A DNA stretch of 64,000 bases, from NCBI GenBank assembly GCA_024279865.1, contig JAJRRC010000057.1:1-64000 (forward strand), read 5' to 3'. Numbering within the stretch: position 1 is the first letter of the stretch; each line of letters starts with the position of its first letter. Of the stretch, positions 9,816 to 62,100 are shown piece after piece. A program made the position numbers and the translations under genes. Origin of the DNA: Planctomycetota bacterium (lineage in GTDB: Bacteria > Planctomycetota > Phycisphaerae > Phycisphaerales > Phycisphaeraceae). Below the pieces are notes generated by a model. The model saw only the letters and a list, made by a program, of their open reading frames with translations. It had not been told where the DNA came from and made no database searches.

Positions 9816-9861
9816 CATCTGTCGCATTCAGACAGAATCCAACGTTTCAGAGTCTGGCGTT

Positions 9862-9981
9862 GTTTTAGATCGCATCACGGGCATGTGTAGCGGGCCTGCA
9901 ACTAGGAAAACGGTATAAACTTGGTTGCCAAGGCGATTAGTTGACAATCAAGCCGCGACACTTGAGTGTGAGGTGTTCTAG
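9862..9981 (+). repeat. Dispersed repeat R1, copy A (about 120 bp)
   Basis: The 120-base segment matches 56398-56516 in the same orientation with roughly 88% identity by eye and one single-base gap. Shared landmarks include GTTTTAGA at the left, GTGTAGCGGGCCT, ACTTGGTTGCCAAGGCGAT, AAGCCGCGACACTTGAGTGT, and CTAG at the right end. Internal palindromes (CTTGG-TTG-CCAAG, CACTTGAGTG) suggest a structured RNA or a non-autonomous element. It is next to IS5 debris, so it may be an end of that element. Confidence 0.85.
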
Positions 9982-25767: not shown

Positions 25768-26009
25768 GCCGCAACGGGCTGTCCCATGCCAACCGTGAGC
25801 GAAATGCCGAGATGGCCGAGGCCCTTTTCTGGGACATGCTAAAGCATCTTCAGACCCTTCACCCCACCTTCGGGATGGGCCATAAGTACTCGGGTTTACC
25901 CCACCGCTTTAAGCGGACCATTTACGCCATTGACTCCACGACGCTTCAGTTGGTTGCCCATTGTCTGCCGTGGGCCAAGCATCGTCGGCGCAAAGCCGTC
26001 GCCAAGTGT

Positions 26010-26116
26010 CATACCAATCACGTTTAAAACTCGTGCGTTTTGTTATTCGCGGAGACTGAATTGACAAGACTTTATAAAATTCTCAACGCGCAACAAAAAT
26101 ACGCAATGCGTATCAC
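26010..26116 (-). repeat. Dispersed repeat R2, copy 1, inserted in the IS4 transposase
   Basis: A segment of about 107 bases is, in reverse complement, closely similar to 39666-39774. Shared words include ATGCGTATTTT-like sequence, TTGTCAATT.AGTCTCCGCGA, and AAAACGCACGAGTTTTAAA. It interrupts the transposase frame between codons for KCH and MQLNLQTF. It contains the palindrome ATACGCA-A-TGCGTAT and the hairpin AAAAC-N6-GTTTT. It has no coding capacity and looks like a small non-autonomous element. Confidence 0.85.
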
Positions 26117-30586: not shown

Positions 30587-31011
30587 TCCGTGCTTGGCTT
30601 GACAATTTCTGGAGGTGGATAGGGGGCGGGGGAACCGGGGGAACCGGGGGGTTGGGGGCGCGGGGTGAACGGTTGGCTGCCCGTTATCTCAAAAAGCAGG
30701 GTTATCATTTGCTTGAGCGTAATTTGCGGAACCGTTTTGGTGAAATTGATTTGATGATGATGTCGCCTTTGCGTGACACGATGGTGGTGATTGAGGTTAA
30801 AACATCTTTGCAGTCATCGGACTATCATCGTCCGGAATTTCGGGTGAATCACGTGAAGCAGCGAAAGCTTGTTTCTTTGGCATCTCAGTGGTGCTGTCAC
30901 AAGAAAATTGAAGGTCTTCCGATTCGTTTTGATGTGGTCGGGGTGGATTTACCTGCTGGGGGTCCGCCGGTGATTCGTCATTACATAGGGGCTTTTGAGT
31001 CGGGCGTGTAG
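30583..31011 (+). CDS. YraN/UPF0102 family nuclease-like protein
   Basis: A 142-residue protein with the YraN pattern: GERLAARYLKKQGYHLLERNLRNRFGEIDLMM, then MVVIEVKTS (the D...E.K core shared with Holliday-junction-resolvase-like folds), and V...KQRKLVSLASQW. The start is a GTG overlapping the previous stop. An insert GGGGTGGTGG near residues 14-23 is encoded by a CCGGGGGAA-type microsatellite (30621-30660) and is not part of the family fold. Confidence 0.88.
   Translation: MIRAWLDNFWRWIGGGGTGGTGGLGARGERLAARYLKKQGYHLLERNLRNRFGEIDLMMMSPLRDTMVVIEVKTSLQSSDYHRPEFRVNHVKQRKLVSLASQWCCHKKIEGLPIRFDVVGVDLPAGGPPVIRHYIGAFESGV
30621..30660 (+). repeat. G-rich CCGGGGGAA microsatellite in the yraN-like gene
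   Basis: GGGGGCGGGGGAACCGGGGG and a second ACCGGGGG unit are read in frame as Gly/Thr. The repeat is close to those at 34375-34440, 48302-48345 and 59745-59858. Confidence 0.8.
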
Positions 31012-34939: not shown

Positions 34940-37150
34940 GTGAGCATGGCCGCAGCCGAACCATCGGCCCCTTGTACGCATTGTGGATTGCCTGTGCCTG
35001 TTTCAAGACGGGAAACCAATCCCCGTCTGCCTCAGTTCTGTTGCTTTGGATGCCATTTCGCCTTTGGTGTTCGACAAGCTGGCGAAGCCCAAGGCAATCA
35101 AACTCCAACCGATTTATCTTCAGACCAAACGCCCATGCTTCGGCTGGGCATCGGCATCTTTCTGACCATGAACATCATGGTTTTCAGCTATTTCTTTTAT
35201 AGCCGCGATATCTTTGGCGAGCAGGCCACGGCCGGGGAAGGCTATCGTCAAATTGCGGAACTGTTGTCCTATTTCTTAATGTTTTGTTGTACCGGGGTGT
35301 TTGTGGCTTTGGGTTTGCCCTTGCTGGCGGACACCGTCAGGATTCTGCGTCACAAGCCTTGGAACATCAACGCCAACACATTGATTCTCATCGGGGTGAT
35401 CGCCGCCATGGGACTCAGCATTGTCAATACCATTCGAGGGCATTACCAGCTTTATTTTGATACTGCTGCGATTATTCTCGTCCTAGTCACACTGGGTCAA
35501 TATCTTGATGGCCGAGCCAAATCACGAGCGACCCATCAGACCCGCATGGCCATCGGTTCACTGCCCCAACAAGCATGGGTCAAACGAGATGGACAGATTT
35601 TAGAAATCCCCGCAGATGAACTTCAAATCAACGATGTTTTGCGGATCAGGCCAGGCGAATCGATTGCTGCCGACGGCATCGTGGTGGGGGGAACCAGTCA
35701 AGTGGCCGAGGCTGCGTTGACCGGAGAGTCCAAGCCTCGTCCCGTGGGGGAAAACGATAGTGTACTGGCGGGCTCGGATAATATTGATGGTTTGCTCTGG
35801 GTCAAAGCAATCCGTGTCGGGCGTGATCGAACTGCCATGATGCTTGAAGAATTATTGCGATCTGCTCGTTTGCATCAGCCTCCGATCCAGGCGTTTGCCG
35901 ATGCTGTGTCTCGCCTTTTTGTGCCTTTGGTTTTGGTCCTGGCGGTGGGGGTGTTTACTTGGCATACCTACGACGGCAATTTTCAACGCGGGTTGTTTGA
36001 TGCGCTCAGTGTGCTTTTGATTAGCTGCCCGTGTGCATTGGGCTTGACAACGCCCTTGGCGACATGGTGTGCGTTGGCTTCGGCTGCTGAGCATGGAATT
36101 ATTTTTGATTCTGGCTTAACGCTTGAGCGGGCGGCCCGCATCCGCAAAATCTATTGGGACAAAACTGGCACGCTGACAACCTCGGGCATGTCCTTGTTAA
36201 AAATCCAAACCACTGCCGACTGTTCAGAAGATCAGGCCATCGCCATTGCCGGGGCTCTTGAATCCGCGAGCCATCATCCCATTGCCCGTGCGTTTGCCGA
36301 TGAAGTTTCACGACGACAATTAACCATCCAATCGCCCCAAACCTGTTCACTGGTTCCAGGGGTGGGAATCAAGGCCACCCTTGAAGGTGAACATTGGCAA
36401 CTGGGCAATGCCACGGGATTGACCCCCGAATCGCTGGCAGCAAGTTTGCCGCTATTTTCCCCGCCATCAGATCAACGCCGAAGCCTAAGGTCTGCCGAAG
36501 GGTCGGATTCTGCGACATTGATGGCCTCTCAAGGCTTGGCCGTCTATCTCACGCGAGATGATCAGATTTTCGCCCGGTTTGAATTGGGAGAAACGCTTCG
36601 TCCCGATGCCAAGGCCGCTCTGGATCAGCTTCGGCAAATGAAAATTAAAATGCACATGATCACCGGTGACTCTCAAGCCAACGCCCAGCCGATTGCCACG
36701 CAACTGGACCTGAGCATGGAGGGAGGCTTGTTGCCTGACCAGAAGTTAACCCTTTTGCAACAAGCCCATCATGAAACCGAAAAAGGGACCGTCGGCATGG
36801 TCGGTGATGGCATCAATGACGCTCCGACCCTGGGCGCTGCAGACGTCGGCATTGCCATGGCAGGCGGGACGGATCTGGCTCACGCAGCAGGCAACATTCG
36901 CCTCTTGACAGATCGGCTCACCCATGTCCCTGCGGCCCTTGCGATTGGTCGTCAGGCCATGACTCAAATCAGGCGCAGTCTTTGCTGGGCGTTTGGGTAC
37001 AATCTGGTGGGTTTGACCTTGGCGACGATGGGGATGCTCAACCCGGTTTTTGCCGCGGCCGCGATGGCTGGTTCGAGCTTGTTTGTGATTAAAACCGCTC
37101 AACAGGCAGGGCAGATTGACACCTTGTTTGCGGTGGAAAAGAGGGTATAA
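34940..37150 (+). CDS. Copper-transporting P-type ATPase (CcoI/CopA2-like)
   Basis: A 736-residue P1B ATPase. The N-terminus has CTHC and CCFGC cysteine groups (residues about 12-38), as in CcoI/FixI. The membrane metal site is SCPCALGL (near residue 361). Phosphorylation is at DKTGT (near residue 406). TGES, an HP motif in ASHHPIARAFADE, and GDGINDAP follow. Location in the cco cluster suggests copper supply for the cbb3 centre. The start is a GTG (ATG at 34946 is the alternative). Residues about 510-525 (QRRSLRSAEGSDSATL) are encoded by a dispersed repeat (36474-36511) and look inserted. Confidence 0.93.
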   Translation: MSMAAAEPSAPCTHCGLPVPVSRRETNPRLPQFCCFGCHFAFGVRQAGEAQGNQTPTDLSSDQTPMLRLGIGIFLTMNIMVFSYFFYSRDIFGEQATAGEGYRQIAELLSYFLMFCCTGVFVALGLPLLADTVRILRHKPWNINANTLILIGVIAAMGLSIVNTIRGHYQLYFDTAAIILVLVTLGQYLDGRAKSRATHQTRMAIGSLPQQAWVKRDGQILEIPADELQINDVLRIRPGESIAADGIVVGGTSQVAEAALTGESKPRPVGENDSVLAGSDNIDGLLWVKAIRVGRDRTAMMLEELLRSARLHQPPIQAFADAVSRLFVPLVLVLAVGVFTWHTYDGNFQRGLFDALSVLLISCPCALGLTTPLATWCALASAAEHGIIFDSGLTLERAARIRKIYWDKTGTLTTSGMSLLKIQTTADCSEDQAIAIAGALESASHHPIARAFADEVSRRQLTIQSPQTCSLVPGVGIKATLEGEHWQLGNATGLTPESLAASLPLFSPPSDQRRSLRSAEGSDSATLMASQGLAVYLTRDDQIFARFELGETLRPDAKAALDQLRQMKIKMHMITGDSQANAQPIATQLDLSMEGGLLPDQKLTLLQQAHHETEKGTVGMVGDGINDAPTLGAADVGIAMAGGTDLAHAAGNIRLLTDRLTHVPAALAIGRQAMTQIRRSLCWAFGYNLVGLTLATMGMLNPVFAAAAMAGSSLFVIKTAQQAGQIDTLFAVEKRV
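36474..36511 (+). repeat. Dispersed repeat R3, copy 1, inside the copper ATPase gene
   Basis: The sequence from GCCGAA.. through CTAAGGTCT to AGGGTCGGATTCT matches the reverse complement of 52817-52855 and the plus strand of 56333-56370. It is in frame and contributes RRSLRSAEGSDSA to the ATP-binding domain. The other two copies are intergenic. Confidence 0.75.
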
Positions 37151-37930
37151 ATGGAAACCACGACTTGGACATTGTTGGGATCACTTTTCTTGGCGGGCCT
37201 TGCGGGGAGTCTGCACTGTATGGGAATGTGTGGCCCTATTTTGGCGGGCTTTGCTCAAACTTTCGCGCGGGGTTCTCAAGCCTCAGGCAAAAAAAAATAT
37301 TCACTTCTCTGGGATTTTGTAGGTTACCACGTCGGCCGGGTGTGGACCTATAGTTTGTTGGGTTTTTTGATGGGCATGGGGGCAGCCCAATTAGAAGAGA
37401 CTGCGACGTGGCTTCAGTTTCAACACGCTCTGGCGTGGGTGGCCGCGATTGTGGTGATTCTTAGTGGGCTTGGTTTGGCAGGTTTGTTGCCTTGGCGTTC
37501 ATTGGGCAAATTGACCCGTTGCACCGCGGGTGGGTTTGTAGGCGTGTCTTTTTTAACCCAGTTGGCACAAGGTCGAGGTTTGTGGCCTCGCTTGTTACTG
37601 GGCGCGGTCATGGGGTTTTTGCCCTGTGGTCTGGTTTATGCCATGCTCGCTTTGGCAGCCACATTGGCGAATCCGTGGCTGAGCGCCTTGGGCATGATGC
37701 TCTTTGGTTTGGGGACGGTTCCATCGCTTTCAGCGGTATTGGGATTGACTCAGCTTGCCTCTGAGGTGAGTTGGCTTGGCCGTTTGCGAAAACATGGCAG
37801 TCATTTGGCAGCCGTTTTACTTTTGATCAGTGGCGGTTGGATGGCTTACCGCGCGACGATCACGCCTCAAGAAGGATGCTCGCATTGTCATTCTGCTCCG
37901 GCCGCGCCAGAGCCTGCGGCAATTGACTGA
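37151..37930 (+). CDS. SafE/TauE-like membrane protein linked to cytochrome oxidase assembly
   Basis: A 259-residue polytopic protein of about six spans. It has the typical opening GLAGSLHCMGMCGPILAGF (Cys-Met-x-Met-Cys motif, possible copper site), GYHVGRVWTYSLLGFLMG and LGAVMGFLPCGLVYAML. This subgroup (sulfite exporter TauE/SafE annotation) is commonly found beside ccoI and is thought to act in copper handling for cbb3 oxidase. It starts directly after the ATPase stop. The C-terminus has CSHCH, reading like a heme site, but in a short tail after the last span; heme binding there is doubtful. Confidence 0.85.
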   Translation: METTTWTLLGSLFLAGLAGSLHCMGMCGPILAGFAQTFARGSQASGKKKYSLLWDFVGYHVGRVWTYSLLGFLMGMGAAQLEETATWLQFQHALAWVAAIVVILSGLGLAGLLPWRSLGKLTRCTAGGFVGVSFLTQLAQGRGLWPRLLLGAVMGFLPCGLVYAMLALAATLANPWLSALGMMLFGLGTVPSLSAVLGLTQLASEVSWLGRLRKHGSHLAAVLLLISGGWMAYRATITPQEGCSHCHSAPAAPEPAAID

Positions 37931-39665: not shown

Positions 39666-39774
39666 GTATGATGCGCATTGCGTATTTTAGTTGCGTGGTG
39701 AGGTTTTTATAAAATCTTGTCAATTGAGTCTCCGCGACTTACAAAACGCACGAGTTTTAAATGAAATTGGTATG
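39666..39774 (+). repeat. Dispersed repeat R2, copy 2
   Basis: This is the inverted partner of 26010-26116, with about 80-85% identity by eye over about 107 bases. It begins near GTATGATGCGCATTGCG and ends near AAATTGGTATGA. It overlaps the ATG of the next gene by three bases. In this copy TCATAC-like words occur at both ends. Confidence 0.85.
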
Positions 39775-42243
39775 ATTCGTCGCTCACGTTCTATTTTTTA
39801 CAGCATCGGGTTACTGCTGATGGTGGTGGCGGGGATTTTACGCTTAACGGGAGAATTGCCCATGTCTGTGGATGCTCAGCACGTGACCAAATCAGCTCAT
39901 TACCCTCAAAAACATAAAAATGGCTCGTGGAAGTGGACCAACCACTTGGCCCATGAGTCCAGTCCGTACCTGCTTCAACATGCACACAATCCGGTGAACT
40001 GGTACCCGTGGGGACAAGAAGCTTTTGACGAATCTCGTCGCACAGGTAAGCCTATTTTTCTGAGCATTGGCTATTCCACGTGCTACTGGTGTCATGTCAT
40101 GGAACGCCAGAGTTTTGAAAACCCTGCCATCGCAGCGGTGTTGAACGAGCATTTCATCAGTATCAAAGTCGACCGTGAAGAACGGCCAGACGTTGATGAT
40201 ATTTACATGGCTGCCGTCCAACTCATCACCGGCTCAGGTGGTTGGCCGATGAGTGTGTTTCTCACCGCTCCGACCCAAACGGACGTGGGTCTCAAGCCCT
40301 TTTACGCGGGGACCTATTTCCCCCCCCAAGACGGCTACGGCAAGCCGGGTTTTCCGACCTTACTCAAGAGTCTGTCCAACGCCTGGAACACCCAGCATGC
40401 CCAGGTGATCGAGCAAGCCGACCGCATCGTAGAAGCCGTCGTTCGACAATTGACCCAGCAACATACGCCCAGCCAATTGTCCGAGCATGTCACGTCTGAT
40501 GCCGTGTCTCTACTGATGCGAATCTACGAGCCAACCGATGGCGGATTTGGCAAAGCCCCGAAATTCCCTCAGCCCGCCAATTTGCTGTTTCTGCTTGAAG
40601 CTCAAAAACGCTTGCCTCATGCACCGGTCGCCAAAGCCTTGATCCATACCCTCGACCGCATGGCACGTGGGGGCATGTATGACCAGGTTGGCGGCGGGTT
40701 TCATCGGTATTCCACCGATGGCCAGTGGCTGGTCCCCCATTTTGAAAAAATGCTCTACGACAACGGACAGCTCGCTGAAACCTATATCAAAGCCCATGAG
40801 CAAAAGCTTGCCTCGCCGACGGACGATCCCCAGTTTTACGCTCGGGTGGCTCGCAGAATATGCGACTATGTGTTACTTGAAATGCTCGATCAATCCGGGG
40901 GCTTTTGGTCCGCCCAAGATGCAGAGGTCGATGCCAAAGAAGGTTTGAATTATCTGTGGGTTAAAAAAGAAATTCACGCAGCCATCAAAGACCCCAAGGG
41001 GGCGGCCTTGGCTTTGCAGATGTATGGGTTCGGGGGTGGAACCAATTTTCAAGACCCGCATCACGCCAAAGAACCGAGGCGGAACGTGTTGTTTTTGCCC
41101 CAGCCCTTGACCGAGGTGGCCCGCGAGCAAGGCATGTCGCTCGAAGCGTTGCTTCAAGTGAAAAAGAAAATAGACGCTCAGCTCTATGCTACGCGGCAAA
41201 CGCGTAAGCAGCCGGGGACCGACGAGAAAATGCTGGTCGCTTGGAACGGGATGATGATCGCGGGCATGGCAAACACCGGCCGCGTGCTGGGCGATGCACG
41301 CTATATCCAGGCTGCCGCCAAGGCGGCCAATGCGATTTTGACCCACATGCAGGCCGACGACGGCAGTCTCTATCGCACAATGAGTCACGGCCACAACGCA
41401 AAAATTCCAGCCTTCTTAGAAGACTACGCCTTTTTCATCCATGGACTCATTGAGTTGTATCGTGCTGATGGCAATGACCGTTGGCTCAACGCTGCAACGC
41501 AACTTGACGCGGTGGTTGAAAAACAATTTGTCGCAGAGCATGGCGGATACTTTGATACCCTTGCAGACCAGGCGGACCTGTTCGTACGCACCCGATCCAT
41601 GTACGACGGCGCTCTGCCCAGTGGCAACAGTCAAATGGTGCACAACCTCATCGACCTAGCTGAAGTGACGGGCGACGTTGCTTATCACAAGCGTGCCACG
41701 AGAGATTTGCAAGCGGCCGTCGGAGCGATGGCCCAGTCGCCCGTGGGGCTGGTTCACATGGTCCACGCTCAGCTAAGGCTCACCGATCAGATGCCCGTGG
41801 TGAGTTCATCACCCACGCGCTCGACGGTGGGTCGTCAGGTGGTGGATGTTAAAATAGAACCCCAGGAAGTCACACTCGCTGATCAACCCGTCAAGCTCAC
41901 ATTGACGTTGGACATTGGTTTGGATTATCACCTCAATGCCCATCATCCGGGGGCGGGCGACGACGCTTTGATTCCCACCACGGTCACGTTAGAGCAAGGC
42001 GAAGGTCTTACTCTGCAAGTTGATTATCCTCAGGGCATCAAACGTCAGTATCCTTTTGGCGATCAGCCGATTCAAGTGTATGAAGGTCATGTTGAAATCG
42101 AGTTGACGCTTACGCCATCTTCAACAGGTTTGGGAGAGTTTTCTGGGGAGCCTGTCTTGGTTTTGCAGTATCAGGTTTGCACAGAGCAAAGTTGTCTCAA
42201 GCCACAAACAGTCACATTGCCTGTGCAGATTCATCGTCAATGA
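39772..42243 (+). CDS. YyaL-like thioredoxin-domain protein with DsbD-alpha-like C-terminus
   Basis: An 823-residue protein. It has an N-terminal signal anchor ([17 protein letters not shown]), then a thioredoxin-like domain with [25 protein letters not shown] opening and [13 protein letters not shown] (CxxC). An alpha/alpha-barrel glycosidase-like region follows ([27 protein letters not shown]). These define the DUF255/YyaL family. The last 140 residues (from about 685) resemble DsbD N-terminal domains, ending [21 protein letters not shown]. The frame extends upstream to a TTG at 39691, but that part lies in repeat R2, so ATG 39772 is preferred. It ends tail to tail with the uroD-like gene. 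Confidence 0.88.
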
Positions 42244-47911: not shown

Positions 47912-49561
47912 ATGTTACCACTTTCCTTTTTTGATACGAATTGTGTGGTTGGCCAGACGGTACGCAGTACACCTGACCAGATGCACTCGGCGGAGCAGTT
48001 GCTCGCAGAGATGGATCATTACGGCATTGCTGAGGCCATGGTGATTCATGCCTTGGGCCGCCAGCTTCATCCGATTGATGGCAATCGTGAAGTTTTGAAA
48101 GTCACCGCCAATCAACCGCGACTGCATCCAGCGTGGACGGCGTTCCCTTGTGGCGTGGTGCATGAGCAGCCGCCTGCTGAGGAGTTTCTCCAGCAGATGC
48201 GAGAAAACAAAGTGGGCGCGTTGTACTTATTTCCCAATCAGTTTCAGTTTACGCTGGATGACTGGTGCATTGATGAATTGCTTGAGCCGTTGGCGGATGC
48301 AGGGGGACCGGGGGGACCGGGGGTGCCGGGGGTGCCGGGGGTGCCTGTGGTGATTAGTCCGGTGGCAACGGAGGGTCGCGATACATTCGTTCAAGATGGG
48401 ACGGATTGGAATTCTGTGGTGAATTTGTGTCGTCGTTTCCCCAATTTGCCTGTGGTGATTAGCGAAAGACGAATTCGTCGCAGTCAGCGAAAAATGTTCA
48501 AAGCGTTTGAAGCCTGTGACAATTTACATATTGATGTTTCGGGGCCTTGGCTGCATCGTTGCATCGAATTTATGGTCGAGAAATTTGGCGTTGAGCGACT
48601 CATTTTTGGTTCTAATTGGCCTATGTTTGGACAGCACATGACGCTAGCGATGGTGGCAAATGCTGATCTGAGTGACGAAGACAAGCAAAAAATCGCAGGG
48701 GACAATTGGCGGAACATGATTCGATGGTGCGAGCCAGAGCATCCTGTGGTGCCTGTTTCGCCGCCTGCCGATGAGTATGTCCACTTCGGCCGCACCGGTG
48801 AAAAATTTGAAGGCATGCAGTTCGATGACTGTCATGCCCACATCGGCGAAAGCTCTGCCCATTACTTTTTAGATAAAGCAGCCACCGATGATCTAATTAC
48901 CTTGATGGATCAATTCTCGATCAAGGAAACCTGTATCTTCGGCCTCACCGGTATCGTCTGTCAAGATGAGCCGGGCAACGATATCGTCACAGATGCCGTG
49001 GCAAGATATCCCGACCGAATTGTGGGCTTTACCATGCTGAACCCACATCGAGGCCCCGAACAAATGCGAGCTGAATTGCAACGCGGCCTAGACAATGGTC
49101 ACCGCGCGATCAAACTGATTCAAACCTATCAAGGTTATCCCGATGAAGGACCCAATATCGATGTGGCCTGCCAATGGGCCCATGATCATGGGATGATCAT
49201 TTTGAATCACTATTGGGGAACGCCCGCGAACATGCAACGGCTCGTGGAAACCTATCCCAATGCACTATTCCTGACCGGGCATACCACCATTGCTTATGCG
49301 GACATCATGAAAAAGCATGACAACCTTTACGTTTGTTCTTGTCCACTGCTTGATCCCAAATCGTGTGAACGTGTGGTGGATGCTATCGGTGCGGACCGTT
49401 TTATGTTCGGTTCAGACATGGTGGATCTTCCCGTGGCGTGGGGCTTGGGCCCGATCCTGTTTGCCCGTATCAGTCCCGAAGAAAAGGAACTGATCCTAGG
49501 CGGGAATTTACGGCGACTGCTTAAAAAATACAGCCTCGTGGCTACAGAATCAATTTCTTAA
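47912..49561 (+). CDS. Tandem amidohydrolase-2 domain protein
   Basis: A 549-residue protein with two amidohydrolase-2 (TIM-barrel) units. The first half (1-275) opens FFDTNCVVGQ and ends LIFGSNWPMFGQH...NWRNMIRW. The second (from about 305) opens FDDCHAHIGESSAHYF and ends RFMFGSDMVDLPVAWGLG...GGNLRRLL. The metal-binding HxH is intact only in the second unit (CHAHIG); the first has DTNCVVG, so it may be non-catalytic. A GGPGGPGVPGVPGVP linker (about residues 131-145) is encoded by a CCGGGGGTG microsatellite. It probably hydrolyses or decarboxylates a ring or lactone substrate. Confidence 0.87.
   Translation: MLPLSFFDTNCVVGQTVRSTPDQMHSAEQLLAEMDHYGIAEAMVIHALGRQLHPIDGNREVLKVTANQPRLHPAWTAFPCGVVHEQPPAEEFLQQMRENKVGALYLFPNQFQFTLDDWCIDELLEPLADAGGPGGPGVPGVPGVPVVISPVATEGRDTFVQDGTDWNSVVNLCRRFPNLPVVISERRIRRSQRKMFKAFEACDNLHIDVSGPWLHRCIEFMVEKFGVERLIFGSNWPMFGQHMTLAMVANADLSDEDKQKIAGDNWRNMIRWCEPEHPVVPVSPPADEYVHFGRTGEKFEGMQFDDCHAHIGESSAHYFLDKAATDDLITLMDQFSIKETCIFGLTGIVCQDEPGNDIVTDAVARYPDRIVGFTMLNPHRGPEQMRAELQRGLDNGHRAIKLIQTYQGYPDEGPNIDVACQWAHDHGMIILNHYWGTPANMQRLVETYPNALFLTGHTTIAYADIMKKHDNLYVCSCPLLDPKSCERVVDAIGADRFMFGSDMVDLPVAWGLGPILFARISPEEKELILGGNLRRLLKKYSLVATESIS
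48302..48345 (+). repeat. G-rich microsatellite (CCGGGGGTG units) in the amidohydrolase gene
   Basis: GGGGGACCGGGGGGACCGGG is followed by three GGGGTGCC units, read as Gly-Pro/Val-Pro repeats inside the first domain. Confidence 0.85.
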
Positions 49562-52754: not shown

Positions 52755-52816
52755 AACGTTGGCGATGCTCGACGCTTTACGCTTGAGCGTGATGAATTGA
52801 TCTGTAGCGTTTGAAA

Positions 52817-52855
52817 AAGAATCCGACTCTTCGGAAGACCTTAGAATTCGGCTTT
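52817..52855 (-). repeat. Dispersed repeat R3, copy 2 (inverted)
   Basis: Its reverse complement reads AAAGCCGAATTCTAAGGTCT and continues TCCGAAGAGTCGGATTCTT. It matches 36474-36511 and 56333-56370. It lies between the sulfatase gene and the Spy-like gene. The rest of 52755-52931 shows no coding signal. Confidence 0.8.
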
Positions 52856-52931
52856 GTCAAAGCCACGGCCATAAACCAAGGGAAGTCCATTCTTTCTTTC
52901 TGACAACTGATAGCTTTTAACGAATCGCTAT

Positions 52932-56273: not shown

Positions 56274-56332
56274 AGAGCGGTTCGTTCAGCACATGTCGCA
56301 ATTTTTTTGTCGTTTTTCAACACCTGTTTTTC

Positions 56333-56370
56333 AAGCCGAACGCTGAGGTATTCTGAAGAGTCGGATTCTT
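56333..56370 (+). repeat. Dispersed repeat R3, copy 3
   Basis: AAGCCGAACGCTGAGGTATT is followed by CTGAAGAGTCGGATTCTT. It has the same layout as 36474-36511 and the inverted copy at 52817-52855. It stands 27 bases before repeat R1 copy B. Confidence 0.75.
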
Positions 56371-56397
56371 CTTAAGCGAGGCCGTTGGATTTAGAGC

Positions 56398-56516
56398 GTT
56401 TTAGAGCGTATCACGTTCATGTGTAGCGGGCCTACAACTGGGAAAACGGCATGAACTTGGTTGCCAAGGCGATGGTTGATCATCAAGCCGCGACACTTGA
56501 GTGTTAGGTGCTCTAG
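56398..56516 (+). repeat. Dispersed repeat R1, copy B (about 119 bp)
   Basis: It pairs with 9862-9981 (same orientation). It carries palindromes CTTGG-TTG-CCAAG, TTGAT-C-ATCAA and CACTTGAGTG. Its right end CTAG supplies the stop codon of the minus-strand gene that begins at 57190. Nothing else is seen in 56274-56512. Confidence 0.85.
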
Positions 56517-58980: not shown

Positions 58981-59131
58981 CTTCCGGGGGAAGTTCCCAT
59001 TTAATGCCTGGTTTCCTTGGGGAAAGCTTCCGGGGGAAGTTCCCATTTAATGCGGGGACTTCCTAGGAAAAGTTTCCGGGGGAGATTCTCATTCAATGCC
59101 TGGTTTCCCTAGGGAAAGTTTCCGGGGGGGG
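58981..59131 (+). repeat. 46-bp tandem repeat array in the uvrA leader
   Basis: There are three full units (58981-59026, 59027-59072, 59073-59118) and a partial fourth (59119-59131). Each begins YTTCCGGGGG, continues AAGTTCCCATTTAATGC-like, and ends TTCC..GGAAAG with a palindrome such as TTTCCCTAGGGAAA. The array stops 8 bases before the uvrA ATG, so it makes up nearly all of the leader. The G run at its end supplies the only Shine-Dalgarno-like sequence (GGGGGGGGAG). Confidence 0.9.
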
Positions 59132-59138
59132 GAGTTTT

Positions 59139-62100
59139 ATGTCCTCAAAAGTGATTTCTATTCGTGGCGCTCGTGAACACAACCTAAAAGCGGTCGATAT
59201 AGACATCCCACGAGATAAACTCGTGGTCGTCACCGGTCTGTCAGGCAGCGGCAAAAGCACCCTCGCCTTTGACACCATCTACGCAGAAGGCCAACGAAAA
59301 TACGTTGAAAGCCTCTCTGCCTACGCACGTCAATTTCTCGATCAACTGCAAAAACCAGATATCGAGTCCATCGAAGGACTCCCGCCCACCATTGCCATTG
59401 AACAGCGGTCCGCGTCACACAACCCACGTTCCACCGTGGCGACCACCACTGAAATTTATGATTACCTCAGACTGCTGTTTGCCCGGGCAGGACAGCCTCG
59501 CTGCTGGCATGTGGATGACAAAGGCCAATCCTGTGGCCAACGCATTGAAAGCCAGTCAGCCACGCAGATCGTCGATCAAATCATGGGCAGAGCCAACGGC
59601 TCACGGCTCATGCTGCTTGCTCCGATCATCACAGGGAAAAAAGGAAACCACAAAGAAATTCTCGCTGACATGGTTCGCCAAGGATTTGTGCGAGCCCGCG
59701 TCAACGGCACAGTCATCGACCTGCGAAAAATGGGCGCTGCTGATGCCCCCGCCCCCGGAAATGCCCCCGGAAATGCCCCCGGAAGCCTTCCCGGAAATGC
59801 CTCCGAAAATTCCGGGGGTGCAAAGCTAGACCAAGAGAAAGCTTCCGGGGGGGTGAAGTTGGATCGGTACAAGACTCATACCATTGAAGCGGTGGTGGAC
59901 CGGGTGATTTTAAAGGACGATCCCAAAGGTGAAATCCGCGGCCGGGTGGTGGAGTCTGTCGAGCTTAGCCTCAAGCTTGCGGAGGGCTTGATTGTCGTCA
60001 GCGAGCTGGTGGACAAAGCCAAAGAGCAATGGGACGACACGCTATACAGCGAACATTACGCCTGTGCGGATCATCCGTCATGTAGCCTGTCTGGATTAGA
60101 GCCTCGGCTATTTAGTTTTAACAGTCCTTATGGCGCGTGCTCAAGCTGTAGCGGGTTAGGTATTGTGCTGGAAGTCGATCCCGAACTGGTGGTGCCTGAC
60201 CCGACGCTCAGCCTTGGCGACGGCGCGATTCAAGCGTGGCGAAACTACGGCAAGCGGATGAGCATTTACTACGGCCGTCTGCTACGCAAATTCTGTCGCC
60301 ACTTTGAGGTCAATCCCAAAACCCCTTTTAACAAGCTCTCCAAATCCATCCGCCGCATCCTGATGGACGGCAGCACCGAACGCGATAAGAAAAAGTTCGG
60401 CCACACCTTCGAAGGTGTTCTCCCACACCTCCAACGTCGCTGGGAAGATACCGATAGCGAATACGTCAAAAACTATCTGCACAACTATCTATCAGAAGCA
60501 CCTTGCGAAAATTGCTGCGGCGCACGCTTGCAAAAACCCTCGCTGCACGTCTTTATGGGATCAGACTGGATGGTCCTTGATGGCAGCGGTCAAAACATCG
60601 GACACCCAAGACAATTCAACATTCAAGACGTGACAGACTTGACCATCGATCAGGCCAGCGGGTTTTTTGAAAGCCTGCAACTTAACGATGAACAAAAGCA
60701 AATTGCTGAGCCCATCCTCAAAGAAGTTCAGGCCAGACTCGGATTCATGCGAAGCGTTGGTCTTGGCTATTTGAATCTCAACCGAGCCACCGGAACCCTC
60801 TCAGGCGGCGAAGGCCAACGCATTCGACTTGCCACCCAAGTTGGCTCCGGCCTTGTCGGCTGCTGCTATGTTCTCGATGAACCCACCATCGGCCTACACC
60901 AACGAGACAACACCCGACTCATCAAAACACTTCGCCATCTCACCGACATCGGTAACACAGTCATCGTCGTCGAACATGACGAAGAAACCATCCACGCAGC
61001 AGACTATCTCATCGACGTCGGCCCCGGCCCCGGCCGTCACGGTGGAACCATTGTCGCCAAAGGACAAATCAAAAATCTTGCGGCCTGTAAAAAATCCATA
61101 ACAGGCCAATTTCTCAGTGGAAAACGGTCAATCTCGCTTCCCGAACAATATCGCACGCTTGATCACAAACATGCCATTACCATCAAAGGTGCTACGCAAA
61201 ATAACCTTAAAAATATTGATGTGGCCTTCCCCCTCGGCGGACTGCTCTGTGTGACCGGCGTCTCAGGCAGCGGTAAAAGTACCCTCGTCAATCAGATCCT
61301 GTTGCGTTCGATCCGACGCCAATTGCACAACTCGCGTGACAAGCCCGGTAGCCATGATCGTGTGGCCAATCTCAAATACATTGACCGCATCATCGAAGTG
61401 GATCAATCTCCCATCGGCCGCACGCCTCGCTCAAACCCTGCGACTTATACCGGTGTTTTTGATAGCTTGCGAAAGCTCTTTACCCAGACCCGTGAAGCAA
61501 AAATCCGAGGCTACCTGCCCGGCCGTTTTAGTTTCAACGTCAAGGGCGGGCGTTGTGAAACCTGTCAAGGCCAAGGCCTCAAGAAAATCGAAATGCACTT
61601 TCTGCCCGATGTCTTTGTGCAATGTGAAGTTTGCCAGGGAAAACGTTACAACCGACAAACATTGGAAGTGACCTACCGAGGCAAAAATATCGCAGATGTA
61701 TTGGCCATGACCGTCGAAGAAGCTGCCGATTTTTTCCAGAACATTCCCGATGCCCACCGCATGCTCAGTGCGTTGAACGATGTGGGGCTCAGCTATATCC
61801 AACTCGGGCAAAGCTCGATCACCCTCTCAGGCGGTGAAGCGCAACGTGTGAAGCTGGCCTCGGAATTAGGCAAGCGTTCCACCGGCCATACCATGTACGT
61901 CCTTGATGAACCGACGACGGGATTGCACTTTGCCGACGTGGAAAAACTGCTGAGCGTGCTGCATCGATTGGCCGACGGCGGCAATACGGTCATTGTGATT
62001 GAACACAATCTAGACGTGATTAAAAACGCGGACTGGATTCTCGATCTTGGCCCTGAAGGTGGAGATCGTGGCGGCACACTCCTCGCCCAAGGCACACCCC

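Follow-up and report, generated by a model that had tools for sequence, protein, structure and literature searches.

A REP-like hairpin family of Phycisphaerales, probably inserted in some genes, including a copper-type ATPase gene

R3 sites in the window

The window, by which we mean the whole 64,000-nt stretch of DNA analysed here, carries three copies of a short repeat, R3, one read within a gene for a P1B-type ATPase and two lying between genes. The features concerned are:

9830..9862 (-): possible R3 remnant, degenerate and lacking its centre, matched by model R2 at no better than E 0.015; adjoins the repeat at 9862-9937
34940..37150 (+): P1B-type (copper-type) ATPase gene, 736 aa, Pfam E1-E2_ATPase and Hydrolase; carries the segment that looks like an R3 insertion
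36473..36515 (+): R3 hairpin in the ATPase gene, translated as RRSLRSAEGSDSA; its core, 36477-36511, has 0 mismatches to the pattern
37151-37930: DsbD_2-type membrane gene (Pfam DsbD_2), directly after the ATPase gene
36477-36511 (+), 52818-52852 (-) and 56335-56369 (+): matches to the 35-nt R3 pattern, 0 mismatches
52783..52810 (-): conserved 3′ arm, 3 mismatches against the arm consensus; belongs to a larger unit that has inverted arms at its ends
52814..52856 (-): intergenic R3 hairpin, 69.7 bits, flanked by a sulfatase gene and an LTXXQ-family gene
56331..56373 (+): intergenic R3 hairpin, 56.3 bits, 3′ of a dihydrofolate reductase gene (DHFR_1)

The three sites lie where the preliminary description had placed them, and each fits one 35-nt pattern without mismatch. 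Chance matches to this pattern averaged 0.00 in 100 dinucleotide shuffles of the window; the pattern was derived from the three window copies themselves, so the genome-wide count with a reversed control is the fairer test. The copies had been called the same 38-base sequence, which needs correcting: they are similar, not identical, the two reported pairs being 85% alike over 41 nt and 87% alike over 39 nt. The intergenic copy at 52814..52856 has the top score of the genome search, and the longer unit with terminal inverted arms encloses some R3 copies. The ATPase copy scores 57.4 bits with covariance model R1 and E 6e-11 with the wider model R2, and is itself among the sequences from which both models were built.

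Other repeats occur in the window as well. A 76-nt direct repeat (9862-9937 and 56398-56473, 89% alike) has one unit near an R3 copy and the other near the possible degenerate R3. Three tandem repeats at 46-nt spacing (58982-59128) lie just 5′ of a 1012-aa open reading frame (ORF) at 59139, an inverted pair of 107 nt (26009-26115 and 39669-39775) is 88% complementary, and runs of a 9-nt G-rich unit are found at 2770-2829, 30602-30669 and 48284-48352.

Copy number and hairpin structure

Counting R3 across the host genome (3.42 Mb, 122 contigs), as had been proposed, gave numbers far above three. The pattern had 66 matches with up to 3 mismatches and the reversed pattern, used as a control, had 0, while model R1, built from the 66 matches, found at least 146 copies, a lower bound since 150 of 1,560 first-look candidates were scored. 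R3 is a short imperfect palindrome, dispersed and in high copy number, as REPs (repetitive extragenic palindromes) are. These counts also bear on whether the ATPase residues are a native loop that resembles the intergenic copies at the DNA level by chance. A native loop would fit the variable protein stretch in which these residues lie, but the absence of chance matches in the window shuffles (mean 0.00) and the 66 matches versus 0 in the genome control refute chance similarity, in-frame copies in four other host genes speak against it too, and we regard this explanation as extremely improbable.

R3 is a hairpin of ~30–50 nt. Its arms covary, a single base is bulged, the internal loop (CTGA...GAAG) is conserved, and the tip can be exchanged. 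A lower stem of CCG/CGG is followed by the bulged base and then by the covarying stem, whose pairs in order are mostly A-T or G-C; C-G or T-G; and T-A, G-C or C-G. Above this stem come a C-G and a T-A pair, the purine-mismatch internal loop (CTGA versus GAAG), a covarying R-Y pair, a G-C pair and a short loop. The covariation score was 0.304 versus 0.155 in shuffles, 0 of 500 of which reached 0.304, and sliding the partner strand as a control gave 0.088 at most; the structure counted was drawn from the same sequences, which favours it. With the alignment alone as input, RNAalifold returned the same fold except for one pair. Further copies keep the lower part and have the loop swapped for other stems of varying length. 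The bulge and variable tip made an integron attC site a further candidate reading. Among the 66 pattern matches, the 3′ flank is ATTC in 61 and the 5′ flank is CAAN in at least 45.

The ATPase segment and other host genes

The best solved relatives of the ATPase are copper ATPases, for example 3j08 and 3rfu. As the preliminary description had it, R3 is read in frame in this gene, RRSLRSAEGSDSA starting at residue 513 of the 736-aa ORF at 34940-37150, and it falls in the ATP-binding region: the HAD hydrolase match PF00702, which we take to hold the P and N (ATP-binding) domains, spans residues 405-635 and encloses residue 513. The suggested comparison with homologues was made using the best homologue from each of 29 of 30 relatives. 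None of the 29 fills more than 4 of the 12 R3 columns, the stretch around R3 is shorter in 28 (the exception has its own longer stretch nearby), and extra residues are seen at the R3 segment relative to the solved CopA 3j08, all of which suggests an insertion. The counter-evidence named beforehand, homologues that share these residues but have no R3 elsewhere, was not seen among the 29. The closest homologues are 45–46% identical over their longest match and the insertion borders therefore cannot be fixed, and the flanks of the ATPase copy resemble those of no other host copy. The earlier proposal that a mobile or gene-conversion-prone repeat had entered a coding region without breaking it is supported by the insertion-like segment, the many copies and the open frame; the movement itself is inferred.

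An ORF scan and alignment identified four further host genes with an in-frame R3, encoding PriA, an exosortase, FliH and a 742-aa membrane protein. The PriA copy is antisense, beside a Gly-Pro-rich repeat, and its stretch is shorter in 28 of 28 homologues (one weak match, L307, was omitted). In the fused exosortase the copy lies between the EpsH and DUF3485 domains, and 26 of 28 homologues are shorter there (one weak match, L337, was omitted). The FliH copy is in the tail; all 19 aligned loci have a shorter stretch, and one of these homologues fills all 12 R3 columns with other residues. The membrane protein has no Pfam match and was counted via the homologue alignment, in which the stretch is shorter in 22 of 22 and other residues fill 3 to 12 of the 12 R3 columns. 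A point against reading these segments as insertions is that the copies tend to occupy poorly conserved stretches.

The PriA locus (L127:489-2783) has Gly-Pro runs (GVPGVPGVPGGG, GSPGSPGSPGS) at two places, which match other places in the genome and look similar to the 9-nt G-rich unit runs of the window.

Distribution among relatives

The exact R3 type had 0 stretches in viral contigs and 0 in the named collection of 84,980 species, which may not contain the host's own records. The short type had 35 stretches in four genomes of the named collection: the MAGs SJ399 and PL23b_bin.82 (both titled Phycisphaeraceae, SJ399 being a member of the host's family) and Co_bin.173 (titled Phycisphaerae), and the complete genome ZRK34, which is titled Planctomycetales, yet is placed in the host's order by genome search. 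A loose pattern matched 15 of 392 genomes of the phylum, host included, with more than one match in only four (69, 29, 9 and 2); its reversed control matched two genomes, once each. The wider model R2, built from 68 matches in 65 loci, had hits in 27 of 121 genomes, again including the host, with up to 52 candidates scored per genome. R3 is one branch of a REP-like short hairpin family in Phycisphaerales (Planctomycetota). No genome of the host's genus was among those compared, and so no empty site is shown and the exact borders are not seen.

Copies of the family lie inside core genes of ZRK34 and of the MAGs SJ399 and Co_bin.173. In ZRK34, 10 of 25 pattern copies fall within Pfam-bearing ORFs, the domain being in the same frame, and the extragenic rule is weaker than in the host. 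The carriers there are DnaE (two copies), ValS (antisense), GcvP, DnaX, ThiC, RecN, a chorismate-binding enzyme (PabB-like), a DUF481 protein and a FabA-like protein, and some copies lie beyond the matched Pfam domain, towards the protein end. The other named loci have 14 of 38 copies in Pfam-bearing ORFs, which encode aconitase, PurL, an oligopeptide-type ABC ATPase, an ABC-F-like protein, BioA, a KDO transferase (antisense), an alcohol dehydrogenase, MutL (two), a lipoyl-domain acyltransferase, an HI0933-type protein, an MnmE-like GTPase, a uracil-DNA glycosylase and an aldose epimerase. Further carriers are SucB (two) and LipA of Co_bin.173 and a sodium symporter of genome G009.

In comparison with solved structures, BioA carries 15 additional residues where its copy lies, and the PabB alignment breaks at the copy. 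GcvP has a 12-residue extra, AHADAERSEASG, which reads like a second, degenerate copy; its main copy, KPHAERSEASDQ, replaces a loop of nearly equal length and adds no residues. A MutL fragment of Co_bin.173 (L403:2-1345) apparently contains, beside the two counted, one more copy that is degenerate (KPWAEERTDEAPEQ).

The family, with its covarying fold, is spread in multiple copies, and it is present in frame in protein segments that most homologues lack. The same repeat sits between genes and in frame inside unrelated genes, five in the host and many in relatives, which is the pattern known from Rickettsia palindromic elements (RPEs). We consider it quite probable that this is a REP-like hairpin family of Phycisphaerales whose host copies are mostly intergenic, often 3′ of genes, with some that have landed in genes, the ATPase gene included.

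Reading frame and peptide

To look at how the copies are read we used 33 gene-supported copies (5 from the host, 4 from other loci, 10 from ZRK34 and 14 from the named loci). Copies left out of this set were one in BioB (L128) at residue 18, which probably precedes the true start, one at residue 2 of a DNA methylase ORF of ZRK34 (L432), four N-terminal copies in named loci (two in L412, two in L381), those in ORFs with no Pfam match, such as L437, L421 and L433, and one in MurG (L359) that looked antisense by eye. Thirty of the 33 are in sense orientation (two-sided p 1.4e-6), and 28 share one frame, as judged on the hairpin's 3′ half (E-x-S/P-D), with p 2e-15 if five open frames are taken as equally likely; these p-values serve as guides, given that copies from related genomes are not fully independent and that the host-type R3 has only about four open frames.

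The preferred frame is polar, encoding K/R-P-x-A-E-R-S-E-A-S-D (KPxAERSEASD) or R-x-L-K-S-S-E-G-S-D, the 33 peptides having a median GRAVY of −1.83. This frame is the most polar open one in three of the four example elements (GRAVY −1.5 to −1.9); in the fourth it has −1.29 versus −1.41 for an antisense frame. A recurring peptide in a recurring frame is again what RPEs show. The simplest reading would be that selection for a polar linker acts as a filter on insertions: those within genes would survive only where their length keeps the frame and their peptide serves as such a linker, which would explain why 28 of 33 share one frame. One copy would in this way have given the nucleotide-binding region of the ATPase a polar loop, leaving the gene unbroken as far as the open frame shows.

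Genomic context

Gene context was taken from simple ORF calling for 133 host copies, of which 70 lie between convergent genes, 35 between genes in the same direction, only 8 between divergent genes and 11 at edges. Nine are inside ORFs of at least 120 aa, some of them probably spurious, and 5 of the 133 are gene-supported. Host copies are thus mostly extragenic, between convergent or same-direction genes, as REPs are.

This distribution, together with the compensatory changes that hold the fold, is what one would expect if the hairpin were mainly a functional RNA signal, such as a terminator, an mRNA stabiliser or a protein-binding site at gene ends, its copies being retained for that role and the coding ones arising as by-products. 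Several observations speak against this: there are copies inside unrelated genes and in a preferred peptide frame, the host has close inverted pairs, and between same-direction ORFs both orientations occur (21 copies the same as the ORFs, 14 opposite). A search of the window and seven loci also argues against a known RNA family, with only two tRNAs passing the Rfam gathering threshold and no Rfam family matching the hairpin in these stretches. We find a mainly RNA-level role improbable.

Close pairs, terminal arms and transposases

REPs can form dimers in opposite orientation (REPIN/BIME). Close pairs of copies are found in the host 7 times versus 1.9 expected within 300 nt, and all 7 are in opposite orientation, one of them overlapping (7 pairs only, among 146 copies). 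The named MAG loci have 5 close pairs, all of them opposite, and ZRK34 has 3, of which 1 is opposite and 2 share an orientation. Terminal inverted arms were looked for around the 133 host copies: a 5′ arm was found in 12, a 3′ arm in 22 and both in 6, these six sitting in a unit of 118–175 nt whose arm consensus is complementary at 24 of 30 positions. Most host copies have no terminal arms at the cut-off used.

With regard to how copies spread, new ones might arise via a single-stranded hairpin intermediate, which would be handled by a HuH-type (IS200/REP-like) enzyme or pass through template switching in replication; a HuH enzyme as the mobiliser is our guess. Y1_Tnp was present in 26 of 31 genomes, whether or not they carry the repeat, and both the host (G000:C57:37930-38280) and SJ399 have Y1 transposases. 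Of the many Y1-transposase neighbourhoods 20 were examined, 1 of which contained a copy, and six copy-rich regions had no obvious transposase among ORFs judged by eye from their translation starts; in these places no transposase could be tied to the repeat. The one copy near a Y1-type match is L351:1349-1390 (G006:C17), which by contig position lies inside the aconitase gene of SJ399.

Enzyme-free spread, through gene conversion or template switching among hairpins as the DNA replicates, is what the words 'gene-conversion-prone' in the preliminary description suggest. It would agree with the lack of a linked transposase in the places checked, and PMC3733652 reports CGTC-type REPs likewise with no dedicated enzyme. 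Gene conversion alone makes no copies at new sites, however, and the flank of the ATPase copy is unlike that of any other host copy. We hold enzyme-free spread to be possible, if on the doubtful side.

Comparison with known repeats

PMC3733652 describes the GTAG and CGTC super-families of REPs as palindromes of 20–40 nt in high copy number, mostly in gaps between same-direction or convergent genes, frequently as dimers and in some cases intragenic, including in DNA-repair genes; both super-families are said there to reach deep phyla such as Planctomycetes. R3 resembles them in being a short palindrome of high copy number in convergent and same-direction gaps, with some copies inside genes. It differs in lacking their tags, with GTAG at 1 of 66 copies and CGTC at 0 of 66 (within 12 nt of the stem ends, both strands), and in having a conserved bulge, a CTGA/GAAG internal loop and an exchangeable tip. 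For the E. coli REP, PMC8266576 states that the internal bulge of the imperfect hairpin matters for TnpA-REP and that the upper half is non-specific. The conserved bulge and loop and the variable tip of R3 form a parallel, but R3 is without the GTAG tag and had no linked TnpA-REP gene in the places checked.

The classic case of repeats in genes is the RPEs of Rickettsia, which PMC10969869 and PMC3733652 describe as ~150 bp long, the latter equating two short RPE families with CGTC REPs. By description, R3 is like them in being in frame inside unrelated genes with a recurring peptide, and unlike them in its family core of ~30–50 nt, its lack of a CGTC tag and its origin in Phycisphaerales. A partial likeness to MITEs (miniature inverted-repeat elements) may be seen in the 6 of 133 host copies that lie in a 118–175 nt unit with both terminal inverted arms, whereas most R3 copies have no such arms at the cut-off used. 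Our searches of open-licence papers turned up no description of the R3 family. The kind of element is already known (intragenic REPs, RPEs, REPs in Planctomycetes), and what sets this family apart is the lack of GTAG or CGTC tags.

In-gene repeats are best known from Rickettsia and scattered REP-rich genomes, and here they occur in another bacterial order. Their carriers are conserved enzymes (DnaE, PurL, aconitase, MutL, ValS, GcvP and PriA) with a strong, measurable frame preference, so the copies amount to a natural experiment in the tolerance of proteins for short insertions, with test sites already at hand. In a hairpin family without the known tags, the mobiliser is also a testable question. 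More tentatively, and rather less likely than not, R3 could be a mobile hairpin under two demands, having to stay foldable for a putative enzyme and to encode a harmless polar linker in one frame. If that were true, such a hairpin could spread through coding DNA too, and would make a new coding-compatible class; the frame preference across five carrier genomes, the polar peptide, the fact that DnaE, MutL and SucB have two counted copies apiece, and the lack of the GTAG and CGTC tags are what suggest it.

A further repeat, CCTGAGCTTGTCGAAGG, which we take to be a bacterial repeat, has at least 120 stretches in viral contigs (L441-L520). The first and second bases flanking it pair in 74% and 51% of 89 distinct copies, respectively, and pairing beyond the third is near background. 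By this pairing, CCTGAGCTTGTCGAAGG may share the CTGA...GAAG hairpin core with R3.
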